IMG/VR virus record: IMGVR_UViG_3300049489_000091 | Location: 1-25,802 of that record | Origin: a virus | Strand: one strand, 5' to 3' | Length of the DNA stretch: 25,802 nt | Part shown: piece by piece, positions 4,825 to 25,667 of the stretch | How positions within the stretch are numbered: the stretch's first letter is position 1 | Layout: the number at the start of each line of letters is the position of its first letter | Notes under the pieces: model-generated | What the model was told of the DNA's origin: nothing | Seen by the model: the letters and a program-made list of their open reading frames with translations, nothing else | Database searches by the model: none | Position numbers and translations under genes: made by a program

Positions 4825-6673
4825 TTGTTGTTAATTTTAAATTGTTTGTATATAATTTATTTATCCTATATTCAATGTCCGCTTTCTGATCCCAAATATT
4901 CCACTTCAAACTTTCAATTTTCGCAATACTTCCATCAGGTGCAATTATTTTGTTACCATTCTTAACAAGCAAATAATCGTCAAAACAAAAAGGCGCATTC
5001 TCTATTCGCTTTCTTATCCATTGATTTGCATTAGGAAGTGCAGCACTCGGAGCAAAGCTATTTATAAAATGATAATTGTCATATAAATACTTAGCTGCTA
5101 ATTGTGTTTGATTGTTTGCGTTTAATTTATTGCCACGATTAGTTCCTCCAACGTCAATCAACATCATCTTTTGAACCATTACGGCATCATTCTCAAGCAC
5201 CATCATTCCTATTCGGTCATTAATTATCTGCCCAAAGTTAATTGCCTGTATCTTTTTAATCGGATTAAGCTTAATATTTACCTTAATCCCGATAAGATTA
5301 AGCACCTTTTTAATGCTGTTTAGAGCCTTTGCAATGCCATTAACAACGCTTATCATGCCGTTAACAACCTTAATTAATCCGTTCATGATGCCGGAAACAC
5401 CGGTTAAAAATACATCGACTATCTTTTCGGGCAACGTCAAAGAAGTTTTTGCCCTCGCCAAAGCAAAAGGAATTGTTACATTCTCATAATTCTGAATAAG
5501 CACCATGTCCTTGTTGGTAACTTTTATCGGTGTTTGCTGCACTTGGTATGATGTGCCTTTATAATTCTGAATCGTATTCTTATCGTTAACGTCAACTAAG
5601 AATTCAATCAATAAATTCGATTTAATTTCACTCGCATTGGTTCCAAATGTAGGCGAATATAAGTCAGGTATTTTATAAATAGCTCCTGAGGTATTAAAGT
5701 CCTTTCTCTCAAATATCAGCTTGCCGTTTTGCATTATAATCTTTGCATTGAACGCAGACTTTAAGGCTCTCAGTAAATCGCCAAACGTACCCTCGTAATA
5801 TCCCACCTGTTTAGTTTTGTCGAACTTCAAAAACCCAAGTATTCTGTTGTCTTTTGGATCGGGTGGGTTCTCAAGTTTGCGAGGTAAAATGAAAAGCTTA
5901 TCCCAATTAGGTGCTAACAAAGTTGATTGAAAAGTCAATCCAAGATATTGGCAGGCAGAATTGATTAAGTCTTTAACATACATTCCGGAATGATACTTTA
6001 CAGGTTGTATAAGCAAATCCAAAATATCTTTTATTAGCTTTACAAGTGAAATGATTAATGTAATTAAATAGAGTATCAGAAATGCAGCTCTTAAAGCCTC
6101 GCTTGGTGCGCTGAACGGATTAGCTGCAGCACTTACCAAGCCTGCCAACTCTGCCGTTGCCTTTTTAATTTGCTCAGCAATAAATATAGTTGCAATAGAA
6201 GCAATCAAAGCATCTTTGTAATTAGGAACGGAATTAATTACATACGGAACAGCGATAAATTTTGTATCGGGCAAAAAGCCGGTTATTTCATGTAGGTATT
6301 CAAAAGTAAAGCTGTCTGCAATCGTGTTAAGCCACTCTATTTTCCCCTTCTCCTCAGAACCACACTCAACTTCCTCGCAGGAAATAACTGTGTCATCGTC
6401 AACGAGATTTAAGTATTGTTCAAATTTTACGGAATTATTACCATCGGAAACAACAATATCAAATGGTATGCCTTCGAAGATACCTACTCCATTGTTTAAC
6501 CCATCGTTAAAATGCTTGTTAATCTCATCAGCATTCTCGTCGGTAAACCTCCATTTGTTTGTTGACAATTTAGCATCGGGAGAATCCCTGTCGAAATTCA
6601 ATTCAATAGCCAACTCCTTATGATTAATCGGAGTAACGCTCTTATTGTTTATGAAGTAATCAACCCTTTGCAT
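4805..6673 (-). CDS. Distal-tail / tail-associated protein candidate with internal hydrophobic segments (622 aa)
   Basis: Follows the tape measure gene directly; its ATG at 6673 overlaps the tape measure stop as TAATG. This is the position of the distal tail or tail-associated (Dit/Tal-like) gene in siphoviruses. The N-terminal 120 residues look soluble and beta-rich. Residues about 155-185 and 194-223 are strongly hydrophobic (AAFLILYLITLIISLVKLIK), and residues about 415-470 form an amphipathic stretch with repeated VNG steps. Hydrophobic segments in a tail protein could mean membrane contact during DNA entry. I cannot assign a named family from the sequence alone, so the role is inferred from gene order. 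Confidence 0.68.
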   Translation of the reverse strand: MQRVDYFINNKSVTPINHKELAIELNFDRDSPDAKLSTNKWRFTDENADEINKHFNDGLNNGVGIFEGIPFDIVVSDGNNSVKFEQYLNLVDDDTVISCEEVECGSEEKGKIEWLNTIADSFTFEYLHEITGFLPDTKFIAVPYVINSVPNYKDALIASIATIFIAEQIKKATAELAGLVSAAANPFSAPSEALRAAFLILYLITLIISLVKLIKDILDLLIQPVKYHSGMYVKDLINSACQYLGLTFQSTLLAPNWDKLFILPRKLENPPDPKDNRILGFLKFDKTKQVGYYEGTFGDLLRALKSAFNAKIIMQNGKLIFERKDFNTSGAIYKIPDLYSPTFGTNASEIKSNLLIEFLVDVNDKNTIQNYKGTSYQVQQTPIKVTNKDMVLIQNYENVTIPFALARAKTSLTLPEKIVDVFLTGVSGIMNGLIKVVNGMISVVNGIAKALNSIKKVLNLIGIKVNIKLNPIKKIQAINFGQIINDRIGMMVLENDAVMVQKMMLIDVGGTNRGNKLNANNQTQLAAKYLYDNYHFINSFAPSAALPNANQWIRKRIENAPFCFDDYLLVKNGNKIIAPDGSIAKIESLKWNIWDQKADIEYRINKLYTNNLKLTTSEPKGY

Positions 6674-21278: not shown

Positions 21279-21469
21279 TAATTAGAGCTGTAAATTTTCT
21301 TTTCAAGTCTTGCACGTTCAAGTATTCTATCCTGATTATCTTCGATGTACTTCTTTACCTTTCCATGAAGCCAATCAAAGCCGTATATGTGTAATAGGTA
21401 TCTTCCCGGTACTTCTCCCATTGTTTTGCCTTTGTGTATGCCAAAAGGCATGATGTCGGTGTCGTTCAT
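21278..21469 (-). CDS. DUF3820-like protein (63 aa)
   Basis: 63 residues, ATG at 21469 overlapping the previous stop as ATGA. It contains MPFGIHKGKTMGEVPGRYLL, the signature 'MPFGKYKGKxLxDVPxxYLxWL' of DUF3820 proteins, followed by a helical region (KVKKYIEDNQDRILERARLE). These small proteins are common in phages and bacteria. Some are related to an exonuclease-associated domain, but no activity is established that I can rely on. It belongs to the small-gene cluster upstream of the terminases. Confidence 0.75.
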   Translation of the reverse strand: MNDTDIMPFGIHKGKTMGEVPGRYLLHIYGFDWLHGKVKKYIEDNQDRILERARLEKKIYSSN

Positions 21470-21642
21470 AGATCAGCTTTTTTGATTAGCATAAATTCTT
21501 GTGTGCTAATATAAACAAAAGTATTACATATTTTATCGAGTTTTTCTTTTATGTTGTTGACTGTTAACTGATTTTCTGAATAAAAGTGTTCAGTAAGTTC
21601 TTTGTCGTATGCTCTGAATTTTGTAACGTATAAGTATCTCAT
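21466..21642 (-). CDS. Small unknown protein (58 aa)
   Basis: 58 residues, MRYLYVTKFRAYDKELTEHF..., from ATG 21642. Earlier in-frame starts at 21726 and 21810 exist, but that extension overlaps the upstream gene or reads as Lys/Asn low-complexity sequence, so the later start is preferred. It looks like a short alpha/beta protein, with strands YLYVTKF and FVYIST and a central helix. Stop and next start overlap as ATGA. No family was recognised. Confidence 0.55.
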   Translation of the reverse strand: MRYLYVTKFRAYDKELTEHFYSENQLTVNNIKEKLDKICNTFVYISTQEFMLIKKADL

Positions 21643-21709
21643 GTTATTTATTTGATTTTTATAATTTTTGTTAAAAGCGACTTGCTCATTATACCTATTT
21701 TTTTTTGTT

Positions 21710-21943
21710 TTAAGAGCCAATTTCATAATCATCAAAATCGCAAATTGACCTAACAAAAACATGACCTCTATCATCGTGTGCTTTGATGGCTGCGTTCCAT
21801 GTATCCCCATGTTGGTCTCGTTCTTTTTGTTTGGCTATTGCCATTGTAAATGTTAATGTTTCCAATAAGTCGCCATCATGTTCAAAGTGACTTTTAATTT
21901 TATCGTAGAACCATTCTACTGCTGTTTGTTTTTTTTCTGACAT
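21710..21943 (-). CDS. Small unknown protein (77 aa)
   Basis: 77 residues, ATG at 21943. It begins MSEKKQTAVEWFYDKIKSHF; the 'KQTAVEWLxxxI' opening is common in small proteins of Bacteroidota phages and mobile elements. It is acidic and helical (TLTFTMAIAKQKERDQHGDT), ending DFDDYEIGS. No function is known to me. Confidence 0.62.
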   Translation of the reverse strand: MSEKKQTAVEWFYDKIKSHFEHDGDLLETLTFTMAIAKQKERDQHGDTWNAAIKAHDDRGHVFVRSICDFDDYEIGS

Positions 21944-21954
21944 ATTTTGCGTAA

Positions 21955-22395
21955 TTAGTATTTAAAGATTATTATTTTTTTCCACACACCCCAACATTTA
22001 GTGTTTGTGTTCACGAGTAAATCAATTGTATTCTTAAATCGCTTATTCATGCAATCTTGAATGTAGTATTTGCCCGACAAATCACCAACACCAGTTACAT
22101 AGATGCTGTCACCATATTTGAACCGTTTAAGCAAGTCTTGACTTATGGCTACAATTCTATGTTTGCCGGGATTATCTTTGTTTATACAAAATCCTGATGC
22201 TGTTAAATAAGGACTTGCATCTGTTTGGTCGGATTCTGCATTGTAAATAGTGGCATTGACTGTTAGGGTATCAATTACACATTCGTGCTTAGTGTTATCT
22301 ACAATTATCGGTCGAGGTTTATTCACGAACTTCCATCCTAACCAAATGGTTAGACAAAGCACTAAGACTATTGCTGCTTGTTTGAGGTGTTCCAT
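21955..22395 (-). CDS. Membrane-anchored 3D/RlpA-like double-psi beta-barrel protein
   Basis: 146 residues from ATG 22395, one base after the previous stop; a TTG at 22404 is less likely. Residues about 4-24 form one N-terminal membrane segment (KQAAIVLVLCLTIWLGW). The rest matches the 3D (three-aspartate) domain: ATIYNAESDQTDASPYLTAS, then HRIVAISQDLLKRFKYGDSI, then YYIQDCMNKRFKNTIDLLVN, with Asp114 and Asp125 in the expected places. This barrel occurs in MltA and RlpA-type cell-wall proteins. A phage copy could act on peptidoglycan or at the envelope, in lysis or superinfection control, but no catalytic activity is proven by sequence. The domain call is fairly secure. Confidence 0.72.
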   Translation of the reverse strand: MEHLKQAAIVLVLCLTIWLGWKFVNKPRPIIVDNTKHECVIDTLTVNATIYNAESDQTDASPYLTASGFCINKDNPGKHRIVAISQDLLKRFKYGDSIYVTGVGDLSGKYYIQDCMNKRFKNTIDLLVNTNTKCWGVWKKIIIFKY

Positions 22396-22396
22396 T

Positions 22397-22579
22397 TTAT
22401 TCAAGTTTTAAATATTCTAATTTACAAATTGCCTTATCTCCTGGATATTCTATTTCTAAAATGAAAAATGGCTCAGGAATATCTTTTTTCAAAATTGCTA
22501 AAAAATCAGTTAGTTTTAAAATTGTCATTCGCTGACCTGTCAGCTTATGAATTATTCTGTCGCCTATTTCAAAAGTCAT
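22397..22579 (-). CDS. Small unknown protein (60 aa)
   Basis: 60 residues, MTFEIGDRIIHKLTGQRMTI..., from ATG 22579; a TTG 12 bases upstream is less likely. The opening 'FxxGDxVxxKLTGxxMxVxxI' pattern, a small SH3-like beta barrel, is common in short phage and host proteins of unknown role. It overlaps the preceding gene by 11 bases. Confidence 0.6.
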   Translation of the reverse strand: MTFEIGDRIIHKLTGQRMTILKLTDFLAILKKDIPEPFFILEIEYPGDKAICKLEYLKLE

Positions 22580-23003: not shown

Positions 23004-23036
23004 TTGCCCAGTAGTTATGGGCAATAAAAAAGGGGC
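23004..23036. repeat. Left boundary repeat of the first methyltransferase unit
   Basis: GTTATGGGC-AA-TAAAAAAGGGGC at 23014-23036 matches the reverse complement of 23716-23738 at 21 of 23 positions, so the pair brackets the first methyltransferase gene. A local palindrome, TTGCCCA (23004-23010) with TGGGCAA (23018-23024), sits in the same site. It lies about 20 bases after the gene's stop. Confidence 0.75.
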
Positions 23037-23057
23037 TAACAGCCAATACATTCATAC

Positions 23058-23792
23058 TTAAAATAATTGCGTTTGTGCTGTTATCTCTTTAAATCGCTTT
23101 TGTGCATCGTTAAAATATGTCGTATCAATTTCCAATCCCACAAAGTCAAGCCCTGCATAATGTGCCGCAATAGCCGAACTGCCACTCCCTAAATGAGTAT
23201 CTAATACCTTTTGCCCTTTCTCCGCATATTCATCAAACAACCATTTGTAAAGGTTAATTGGCTTTTGTGTCGGATGTATTCGCACCTCTTTATTTTTCAT
23301 ATCTGCCTGAAGCATTCCATGCCAACGGTGCTTTACTTTTCTTACAGCAGTTTTGTAACTTGTCCAAGCCAATTCACAGTCAGCATATCCGTTATCGCCA
23401 TTAACCTTATCCCAAACAATCCAACAAGGGCTTGCAAAAGGTATTAGATTTATGAAGTGATTTGCTCCCCAGATAATTTGATTTTTACTAACCCTCATCA
23501 ACTCCGCAAAGTATTCAGGCGGTGGCGGTGTTTTGTCCCAATCTTTTTTCTCATAGGTTTTACACTTTGCCGCACTTGCTCCATATTGAGTTCCGCCTCT
23601 TTCATAGTTGCTTGCATTTATCCCATAAGGAACATCCACCACCGCCAAATCAAATTGCTTATCGTGGCAGTTTTTTAGATAATCCATACAATCCACATTA
23701 AGTAATTGAACAGCCGCCCCTTTTTTACAGCCCATAACAGCACCTTGCGGCAATGCCGGGGTTCCTGCGTCCTCTGTCTTATTTGTTTTCAT
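23058..23792 (-). CDS. Beta-class DNA methyltransferase, first of three
   Basis: 244 residues, ATG at 23792. The beta-class order is visible: motif IV early (DVPYG, residues 53-57), a central target-recognition region, HPTQKP (173-178), and the AdoMet-binding motif late (VLDTHLGSGSSAIAAH, about 196-211). Motif IV is DVPY rather than the usual DPPY. The enzyme should methylate adenine N6 or cytosine N4; the site cannot be told. It is paralogous to the next gene (shared WGxNxx, GDNxYADxELAWTS, LDTHLGSG). Residues about 11-21 (TPALPQGAVMG) are encoded by the repeat, and an ATG at 23735 inside the repeat is an alternative start. It may protect phage DNA from restriction. Confidence 0.85.
   Translation of the reverse strand: MKTNKTEDAGTPALPQGAVMGCKKGAAVQLLNVDCMDYLKNCHDKQFDLAVVDVPYGINASNYERGGTQYGASAAKCKTYEKKDWDKTPPPPEYFAELMRVSKNQIIWGANHFINLIPFASPCWIVWDKVNGDNGYADCELAWTSYKTAVRKVKHRWHGMLQADMKNKEVRIHPTQKPINLYKWLFDEYAEKGQKVLDTHLGSGSSAIAAHYAGLDFVGLEIDTTYFNDAQKRFKEITAQTQLF
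23716..23738. repeat. Right boundary repeat of the first methyltransferase unit
   Basis: Inverted partner of 23014-23036. On the minus strand it reads GTTATGGGC-TG-TAAAAAAGGGGC. It lies inside the 5' coding part of the first methyltransferase and forms the outer box of the hairpin site at 23730-23864. Confidence 0.75.
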
Positions 23793-23864
23793 ATTGTATT
23801 TTTAGATCGTTAGTTTTCTACCTCTTTCTCCCGGCACTTCCGCAAGCTGCAAACCGTTAGCGGC
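23730..23864. repeat. attC-like hairpin site 1, between methyltransferase units 1 and 2
   Basis: The outer boxes are GCCCATAAC (23730-23738) and GTTAGCGGC (23856-23864), 7 of 9 complementary. The inner arms are 23740-23759 and 23831-23850 (CCGGCACTTCCGCAAGCTGC), 17 of 20 complementary. The loop is 71 bases and holds the start codon of the first methyltransferase. Spacers between outer and inner arms are 1 and 5 bases. A 135-base imperfect palindrome with nested box pairs is the form of an integron attC site; that identity is inferred. Confidence 0.6.
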
Positions 23865-23869
23865 AATGC
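23856..23869. repeat. Left boundary repeat of the second methyltransferase unit
   Basis: GTTAGCGGCAATGC; its reverse complement matches 24513-24526 at 13 of 14 positions, so the pair brackets the second methyltransferase gene. Confidence 0.7.
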
Positions 23870-23878
23870 TACGGACTG

Positions 23879-24580
23879 CTAAAACATAGTCAGTTGTGCT
23901 GTAAAATTTTTCCATCTTGTTTCCTGCATTTCAAAATAGTCCTTATCAATTTCAGTCCCCACAAATATTTTACCCGCCTTATGAGCAGCTATTCTGCTTC
24001 CGCCACTACCCAAATGAGTATCTAAAATCAAATTTCCTTCGCTCATAAATTCTTTAATTATCCATTCGTAAAGTTGTATTGGCTTTTGCGTTGGGTGTAT
24101 TCTGTCAATATCAAACTTCTCCTTTGCATTTCCACCGCTCCAAAATTTACTGAACTTTTTTACCACCTTATCAAATGAAGTCCAAGCCAATTCCCCATCT
24201 GCATAAGAATTATCTCCAGTTCCTTTATCCCAAAAAATCCAGCATCTTGAAGGTGGCAAAAATTCAGTCATATAATTTCCTCCCCACACAATTTGATTTT
24301 GAGATACTCTGAATAGCTGCTCCCAATACTCAGGTGCAGGAATTGATGTGTCCCAATCATTTTGTTTATGGAATTTTGAAGGTCTTACCCTTGTGCCACT
24401 TTTAAAGTTTACACTTCCTGCACCTATCCCATAAGGCGGGTCTACGATGGCAAGATGGAAAAATTTATCAGGCACTTGTTTCATAAATTCGATGCAGTCC
24501 ATATTGAACACCGCACTGCCGCTAACAAGGGCTTGCTGCAATAGCGGGTTTTGTGCATCTATGATAGTTTTGTCGTTCAT
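23879..24580 (-). CDS. Beta-class DNA methyltransferase, second of three
   Basis: 233 residues, ATG at 24580. Motif IV is canonical DPPYG (47-51), HPTQKP is at 162-167 and the AdoMet motif LDTHLGSGGSRIAAH starts near 186, giving beta-class order. It is clearly paralogous to the previous methyltransferase over most of its length, including SQNQIVWGGNYM and GDNSYADGELAWTS. The N-terminal peptide PLLQQALVSG is encoded by the hairpin repeat and parallels PALPQGAVMG in the neighbour. A shorter protein from Met27 is possible, since the family core begins near NMDCIEFM. Its stop lies about 15 bases from the boundary box GTTAGCGGC. Confidence 0.88.
   Translation of the reverse strand: MNDKTIIDAQNPLLQQALVSGSAVFNMDCIEFMKQVPDKFFHLAIVDPPYGIGAGSVNFKSGTRVRPSKFHKQNDWDTSIPAPEYWEQLFRVSQNQIVWGGNYMTEFLPPSRCWIFWDKGTGDNSYADGELAWTSFDKVVKKFSKFWSGGNAKEKFDIDRIHPTQKPIQLYEWIIKEFMSEGNLILDTHLGSGGSRIAAHKAGKIFVGTEIDKDYFEMQETRWKNFTAQLTMF
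24513..24526. repeat. Right boundary repeat of the second methyltransferase unit
   Basis: GCACTGCCGCTAAC, the inverted partner of 23856-23869, within the 5' coding part of the second methyltransferase. Confidence 0.7.
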
Positions 24581-24655
24581 TTTAAGTTTTGTATTTCAAT
24601 TAAACATTTGTGGTTTAAGCCCGCTACTGACAGCAAGCCCCGTCACGTTAGCGGT
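24518..24655. repeat. attC-like hairpin site 2, between unit 2 and the gene-free unit
   Basis: The outer boxes are GCCGCTAAC (24518-24526) and GTTAGCGGT (24647-24655), 8 of 9 complementary. The inner arms are GGGCTTGCTGCAATAGCGGG (24529-24548) and the 21-base partner 24620-24640, 19 of 20 complementary with one unpaired A. The loop is again exactly 71 bases and holds the start codon of the second methyltransferase. Spacers are 2 and 6 bases. The unpaired base and nested boxes are typical of integron attC sites, but membership is inferred. Confidence 0.65.
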
Positions 24656-24744
24656 AATGCCACCGCCCTAAATAACGCTTCGGGCATGGAAGCTATTCCT
24701 CGCGTTGCCAACCCTTCGCGGTGGACACTACCGCTAACAACGTG
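24644..24744. repeat. Gene-free repeat-bounded unit (about 100-bp palindrome)
   Basis: The left arm 24644-24666 (CACGTTAGCGGTAATGCCAC...) and the right arm 24718-24744 are complementary apart from a 3-base and a 1-base insertion and one mismatch. The 51-base interior holds no gene but nests further short stems, AACGC/GCGTT and GGAA/TTCC. It stands in the series of repeat-bounded units as an empty member. The 24581-24829 gap is otherwise without genes. Confidence 0.65.
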
Positions 24745-24765
24745 TATAACCAATGCAAAAAGGCG
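24742..24765. repeat. Left outer boundary repeat of the third methyltransferase unit
   Basis: GTGTATAACCAATGC followed by AAAAAGGCG. Its reverse complement is found at 25644-25667 with 23 of 24 positions identical, so the pair brackets the third methyltransferase. Confidence 0.8.
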
Positions 24766-24803: not shown

Positions 24804-24821
24804 AAAAATATTTTTAAATGC
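24804..24821. repeat. Left inner inverted repeat of the third methyltransferase unit
   Basis: AAAAATATTTTTAAATGC, 18 bases, is perfectly complementary to 25597-25614. It lies 8 bases beyond the gene's stop codon, and the partner overlaps the start codon. Confidence 0.8.
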
Positions 24822-24829
24822 CCCCGCGC

Positions 24830-25600
24830 TCATGGAAATACTAATTGAGGTTTGGACAATGCGATAGAAATTCTCTTGATTGAATCATCGTAATATTCTT
24901 TTTTGGTTTCAGAGCCAATAAACTTACGTCCTTCAATTATACAGGCTTCTGCGGTTGTTCCTGAACCACTGTACCCATCAAAAACCGTTTCACCTGGATT
25001 TGAGTAAGTTCTAACCAACCATCGAAATAAATCAAGTGGCTTTTGTGTTGGGTGGTCAATCTTATCAACTGAGTTTCCAATGACAGCCGTGCAAGCAATT
25101 ACACTTCTCGGATAAGACTTATTTGGGTCAAGGTCTGAAACGTAATCTTTTTGCTTACCATAGTTTTCTGTCTGCGGTTTCATTGTTTGTCCCTTGAAAT
25201 TTCTGTCAAGTTTATCCTGAGTGAATTGAGGGTTATATGTAATCTTGCCACGTCCAAAAACTATGATATTCTCATGTTGTCTCAATGGCATTATATCAGC
25301 GTTCAGGTGTCCAGTTGGTCTTTTCTTATCCCAAATAAGTTCATATTTGAAAAATCCTTGCCGTGATATTACTAAGTGAGAAGTGAAGGGTTGAGAAGCT
25401 GTAAACACAAAAGCACCGTTTGGTTTTACAACGCGTTCCCACTCTAACCACATTTCAGCAAGGTTGATAGGTTTATCCCAACCGTTCTGAGTAGTTGCAT
25501 ACGGTGGGTCAGTCAACATCAAGTCAACGGACGCATCGGGCAGACTTTTAAGTAAGTCCAAACAATTACAATTCAGTAATTCAATTCCCCCGCTTCGCAT
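24830..25600 (-). CDS. Beta-class DNA methyltransferase, third of three
   Basis: 256 residues, ATG at 25600, directly after an in-frame TAA, so the start is secure. Motif IV DPPY is at 31-34, HPTQKP at 183-188 and the AdoMet motif VFDGYSGSGTTAEAC at about 206-220. The order is again beta class, N6-adenine or N4-cytosine. The central region (ELIWDKKRPTGHLNADIMPL, HENIIVFGRGKITYNPQF) differs strongly from the other two, so it is a separate lineage of the N6_N4_Mtase family and probably has a different target site. It is bounded by two nested inverted repeat pairs. No restriction enzyme gene is visible nearby. Confidence 0.9.
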   Translation of the reverse strand: MRSGGIELLNCNCLDLLKSLPDASVDLMLTDPPYATTQNGWDKPINLAEMWLEWERVVKPNGAFVFTASQPFTSHLVISRQGFFKYELIWDKKRPTGHLNADIMPLRQHENIIVFGRGKITYNPQFTQDKLDRNFKGQTMKPQTENYGKQKDYVSDLDPNKSYPRSVIACTAVIGNSVDKIDHPTQKPLDLFRWLVRTYSNPGETVFDGYSGSGTTAEACIIEGRKFIGSETKKEYYDDSIKRISIALSKPQLVFP

Positions 25601-25614
25601 TTAAAAATATTTTT
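25597..25614. repeat. Right inner inverted repeat of the third methyltransferase unit
   Basis: Perfect 18-base inverted partner of 24804-24821. On the minus strand its ATG is the start codon of the third methyltransferase. Confidence 0.8.
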
Positions 25615-25643: not shown

Positions 25644-25667
25644 CGCCTTTTTGCACTGGTTATACAC
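25644..25667. repeat. Right outer boundary repeat of the third methyltransferase unit
   Basis: On the minus strand GTGTATAACCAGTGC followed by AAAAAGGCG, partner of 24742-24765 with one mismatch. It is preceded on the minus strand by GCCCTTGCAGG, similar to the inner arm of hairpin site 2. Confidence 0.8.

Follow-up and report, generated by a model that had tools for sequence, protein, structure and literature searches.

Integrons (class 1 and Vibrio elements, with the recombinase IntI) hold one-directional arrays of cassettes beside a tyrosine recombinase. Their cassette genes are small and mostly of unknown function, crossover is at G^TT, and the canonical attC site is a one-strand hairpin with RYYYAAC / GTTRRRY boxes and a roughly equal unpaired spacer. 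Xer enzymes act on the double-stranded dif site. Arrays of attC sites in phages (CALINs) were described by Qi et al. 2023 (PMC9892861), examples being Polaribacter phage P12002L and Tetrasphaera phage TJE1, and a survey with IntegronFinder 2.0 reported one complete integron in Bacteroidetes proper, that of Salinibacter ruber (PMC9024848). In literature searches covering few subscription journals and no bioRxiv preprints, we found no description of the system reported here.

We analyzed a 25.8-kb virus record, referred to as the window, which encodes a major capsid protein, portal, prohead protease and terminase, and has three DNA methylase genes, all on the minus strand, at its right end (Table 1). 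A preliminary description had noted two attC-like hairpins at the first two of these genes. Both are present, and we consider it very likely that they are recombination sites of mobile gene cassettes, served by an IntI/XerA-type recombinase that is probably supplied by the host. The gene-cassette system to which they belong is integron-like and is widespread in Bacteroidota and their phages; in the window, MTase1 is the gene of cassette 1 and MTase2 that of cassette 2. An Rfam search of the window gave zero matches.

Table 1. Features at the methylase end of the window. R1 is a covariance model of the site family; hairpins 1 and 2 are both among its own model sequences, so that their R1 scores are not independent.
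Feature	Position	Strand	Remarks
Cassette 1	23014..23855	-	842 bp; expected to cross over within the GTTA on either side
MTase1, N6/N4 DNA methylase (PF01555)	23058..23792	-	First codons within loop and arm of hairpin 1
Hairpin 1, attC-like site of cassette 1	23730..23864	-	R1 83.3 bits, E 1e-16; folds
Cassette 2	23856..24646	-	791 bp; own ends match 13/14
MTase2, N6/N4 DNA methylase (PF01555)	23879..24580	-	Start codon within loop of hairpin 2
Hairpin 2, attC-like site of cassette 2	24518..24655	-	R1 116.2 bits, E 2e-24; folds
Cassette 3 body (no gene)	24647..24738	.	92 bp; ends pair with each other
Left inner arm, proposed third site	24742..24765	+	24-nt inverted repeat with 25644-25667
MTase3 (PF01555)	24830..25600	-	Entirely within the 878-nt loop of the proposed third site
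Right inner arm, proposed third site	25644..25667	+	Box on its right degenerate

Folded as single-stranded DNA, the minus strand gave -22.1 kcal/mol for hairpin 1 and -30.6 kcal/mol for hairpin 2 (z -3.0 and -5.4), and the plus strand folded less stably, at -17.2 and -27.7 kcal/mol. The compensatory changes predicted for the arms were found, 25 of 29 pairs being altered on both sides. The unequal spacers are likewise a feature of the family, in which 5/1 is the most frequent spacer pair. The loop of 71 bases, earlier taken to be exact, is typical in length but not fixed, as sites of about 68-105 nt occur too.

The family was delimited with a purpose-made scanner that seeks outer boxes, unequal spacers and inner arms, pairing being a requirement; the loci scanned were picked by methylase homology or by a 15-mer taken from the box. 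In these loci the scanner recovered 55 hairpins, most of them 133-140 nt long, as against 0 in shuffled copies. The model R1, made from 51 scanner-type sites, had a covariation score of 0.528, compared with 0.164 when shuffled and at most 0.12 when slid. Pairing being a requirement of the scan, the percentage paired is partly circular; this does not apply to the G.T wobble, conserved in 41 of the 50 sequences having letters at model columns 35/164, or to the end-matching described below. Many Bacteroidota phages contain sites detected by R1, as do 53 of 60 sampled Flavobacteriaceae genomes, with up to about 50 in one genome. Set against the single Bacteroidetes integron of PMC9024848, this would, if confirmed, represent a large uncharted pool of mobile genes. 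A few sites were found in one Chlorobium, one Balneolaceae and one Kapabacteria genome, and none in 14 control genomes of other phyla. The 15-mer pattern alone was rejected as a marker, its occurrences outside Bacteroidota being mostly chance in genomes that have no R1 matches. Short site forms (about 68-105 nt) are mixed with 135-nt ones in loci L005-L084 and L423-L434. A CACNAA-type motif recurs in the loops of phage sites (e.g. L181, L223, L210), about 37, 56, 74 and 93 nt from the site end, i.e. at a spacing of ~19 nt, and is weaker in chromosomes; it could be a protein-binding repeat.

The arrays follow a cassette logic in which the array site is chimeric. On the folding strand, the bodies between consecutive sites begin with GTTA and end with TAAC. 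The two 14-base ends of one body agree at a mean of 10.9/14 positions in phages (n=53) and 12.3/14 in chromosomes (n=73), whereas the two boxes of one hairpin agree at 7.5/14, as do random pairs (7.3-7.7); for own ends against within-hairpin boxes or random pairs, p is 7e-13 in phages and 2e-24 in chromosomes. This result is not circular because R1 selects hairpins, not distant ends. The outer boxes had been described as partners in situ, a reading that does not hold for the family and that the window does not favor: boxes of one hairpin agree there at 8/14 and 12/14, the outer boxes of cassette 1 being badly paired in situ, and the ends of one gene body agree better. The ends of cassette 1, GTTATGGGCAATAA and the complement of TTACAGCCCATAAC, match at 12/14, counting the wobble position 11, and those of cassette 2, GTTAGCGGCAATGC and the complement of GCACTGCCGCTAAC, have their sole mismatch at position 11. 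The right box of hairpin 1 is the start of cassette 2. Since own ends match and hairpin boxes do not, a complete site arises only when the ends of one body meet; judged from sequence, such end-matching is the mark of units passing through a circle. Position 11 is mismatched in 35/36 phage and 69/69 chromosomal end pairs (104 of 105 well-matched pairs); in 32 and 63 of these, respectively, the mismatch reads G.T on the folding strand. The inner arm resembles this 14-base pattern and shares the wobble. The wobble and the bias in predicted stability would fit single-strand folding in vivo, with a recombinase acting on the folded strand.

We found no tyrosine recombinase (PF00589) in four complete genomes of cultured phages or in the window. 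In chromosomes, the best TIGR02249-like gene often adjoins an array. In Flavobacterium sp. AS60 it lies at 21373-22413, 0.6 kb from an array of about 50 sites that starts at 23019, and in one further locus (L413) it reads toward the array from 5373-6530, the first cassette beginning about 96 bp past its stop; in Flavobacterium celericrescens, Bacteroidales CF, Kaistella, Chryseobacterium and others, too, such a gene adjoins an array. A recombinase adjoining a one-directional array was seen in chromosomes and in none of these phages. The gene is present in 22 of 24 site-positive compared with 1 of 7 site-negative Flavobacteriaceae (p 2.5e-4), the site-positive genomes having been chosen for many sites. 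No close relative was found in site-bearing Pedobacter, Balneolaceae and Chlorobium genomes. The array-linked recombinase matches TIGR02249 only at about 2-180 and 238-315, and a gap of ~44 residues relative to IntI1 corresponds to absence of the IntI extra domain. The conserved Arg, His-x-x-Arg, His and Tyr positions are retained in the alignment, and most of the recombinases have about 70 extra N-terminal residues that are absent from IntI1. Its nearest full-length profiles are XerA and XerC-D (NF040815, TIGR02224/5), although its targets would be cassette sites in arrays rather than a double-stranded dif. By these alignments the enzyme is IntI/XerA-like. The recombinases of L411, L404, L406 and L407 share the N-terminal stretch MNWxAKLIKH..WSxxxKxWHxPDT.

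The possibility that these are ordinary integron attC sites, of the kind that standard tools report as CALINs, moved by a canonical IntI, deserves consideration. The system shares with integrons the hairpin formed by one strand, R and L boxes, GTT-box cassettes delimited by their own matching ends, a crossover that fits G^TT, small genes whose function is mostly unknown, and a one-directional array beside a recombinase related to IntI1. Phage CALINs with methylases are also known, some of them recombined by IntI1 (PMC9892861), and these resemble our arrays in having cassette-type sites beside DNA methylases in lytic phages that themselves have no integrase. However, only 6% of phage boxes and 2% of chromosomal boxes fit GTTRRRY; in place of 7-bp boxes, there are 14-bp half-sites of the pattern GTTANNNNNNGTNN with a fixed G.T wobble, and the bulge is 5/1 instead of a roughly equal spacer. 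The adjacent recombinase does not have the IntI extra domain, and R1 matched neither the R388 class 1 integron nor P12002L, leading us to reject both as members of the same family. The described phage CALINs have canonical attC sites found by standard tools, whereas our phage arrays reach about 14 sites, have reversed genes, and show relocation between isolates. We therefore consider ordinary integron sites improbable. The earlier term attC-like is apt insofar as the hairpins are recombination sites for which single-strand folding is selected, as supported by covariation, the one-strand wobble and natural relocation; they are not standard attC sites. We do not class the system as an integron, though it works like one, because the extra domain and the GTTRRRY boxes are missing. 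The methylase of Tetrasphaera phage TJE1 (H12) is 49.5% identical to MTase2, and TJE1 has canonical attC sites (PMC9892861), so that both types of site carry related methylases.

Both loops hold start codons, as the preliminary description reported, and the better-folding strand is the coding strand, which raised the possibility of RNA hairpins that control methylase translation. An ATG is present in the loop at 52 of 94 phage sites as compared with 6 of 87 chromosomal sites; because the loop start codon is thus phage-specific, translation control cannot account for the whole structure. Among phage bodies that have a main gene, this gene has the direction of the folding strand in 60/60, whereas in chromosomes it runs against the folding strand in 74/77 bodies, as in integrons, so that chromosomes keep the structure with genes running the other way and starting outside it. 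R1 also found no site at any of 80 loci with MTase1 relatives, indicating that the site does not belong to this methylase family as a regulatory element, and the cassettes move as units. Translational control is therefore very improbable as the explanation of the hairpins, a secondary influence upon translation being possible. In about half of the phage sites, the loop ATG opens a frame running through the R box, and each such phage cassette therefore carries the start of its gene. One idea is that the inversion of phage cassettes is tied to a fixed relation between folding strand and replication.

Cultured lytic phages that Nilsson et al. (PMC7077304) reported, with Flavobacterium LMO6 and LMO9 as hosts, show natural relocation of a cassette, and their gene blocks differ exactly at the cassette sites. 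Phages lillamy9-2 and lillamy9-3 are each 38,268 bp and identical over positions 1-2036; a cassette of 439 bp lies at 5637 in one isolate and at 2037 in the other. The sequence between the two positions is identical (3600/3600), one base differs over the next 16 kb, and that base and the position of the cassette are the only differences in the first 22 kb. The candidate crossover points span GTTAT, which places the crossover within these bases, in agreement with G^TT. The 439-bp cassette moves with its own hairpin, and polarity is therefore fixed as in integrons; the opposite polarity, with the hairpin travelling with the neighboring body, is ruled out. More isolates hold this cassette at either place, and the sites of snork6-1 are empty. 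With regard to a possible attI site at the array head, one insertion point in the lillamy phages is the left edge of the array; no attI motif emerged. Between hemulen and stinky a block with a methylase differs. The evidence of relocation comes from the lillamy isolates, the window being a fragment in which no cassette movement was observed. Homologous recombination among the repeats, with no dedicated recombinase, would draw on the likeness of sites within an array and the free recombination of phages, but it is extremely improbable because the two sites share only GTTAT at the junctions and are unlike in their flanking halves. Nilsson et al. proposed a missing methylase behind the poor plating of some phages on LMO6 (PMC7077304), and two poor platers that they name, morran9-1 and lillamy9-1, are without the hemulen6-1 methylase block. 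A single methylase cassette deciding plating on LMO6 was rejected: the LMO6 isolates of snusmum6 are without the full block too, so the hemulen6-1 block alone does not decide plating.

Recombination at hairpins 1 and 2 as cassette sites would proceed as follows. The minus strand would fold so that half-sites R and L, each 14 bp long and following GTTANNNNNNGTNN, are brought together with a 5/1 bulge and a closing loop. An IntI/XerA-type tyrosine recombinase, most likely from the chromosomal cassette system of the host, would act on the phage sites and cut inside GTTA; the cassette would leave as a circle, in which its two matching ends form a complete site, and the circle would insert at another site. 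With the phage gene opposite to the usual direction, and often starting in the loop, each cassette would supply a complete gene with its start. With such an array, phages may take up or shed small genes, DNA methylases among them, and change their order, probably to their benefit against host restriction. We think it rather likely that this represents a separate hairpin-cassette class native to Bacteroidota, with an IntI-like enzyme that does not have the extra domain regarded as essential to integrons, and that lytic phages maintain a pool of inverted cassettes of their own and shuffle anti-restriction methylases by means of the enzyme of their host. Confirmation would mean that recombination at folded sites does not require the IntI extra domain, and would provide cultured phages in which cassette exchange, and perhaps an effect on restriction, can be watched directly.

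A third cassette probably holds MTase3 inside the loop of its site. The gene-free cassette 3 body has the ends GTTAGCGGTAATGC..ACACTACCGCTAAC, and the stretch folds at z -3.9 to -4.3. The arms of the proposed third site pair at 23/24 positions, the lone mismatch being a G.T wobble, as is usual in the family. The third site is likely but weaker than the other two, because its right outer box is degenerate and R1 does not report it. Inside its loop, a perfect 18-bp inverted repeat (24804-24821 and 25597-25614) directly flanks MTase3.
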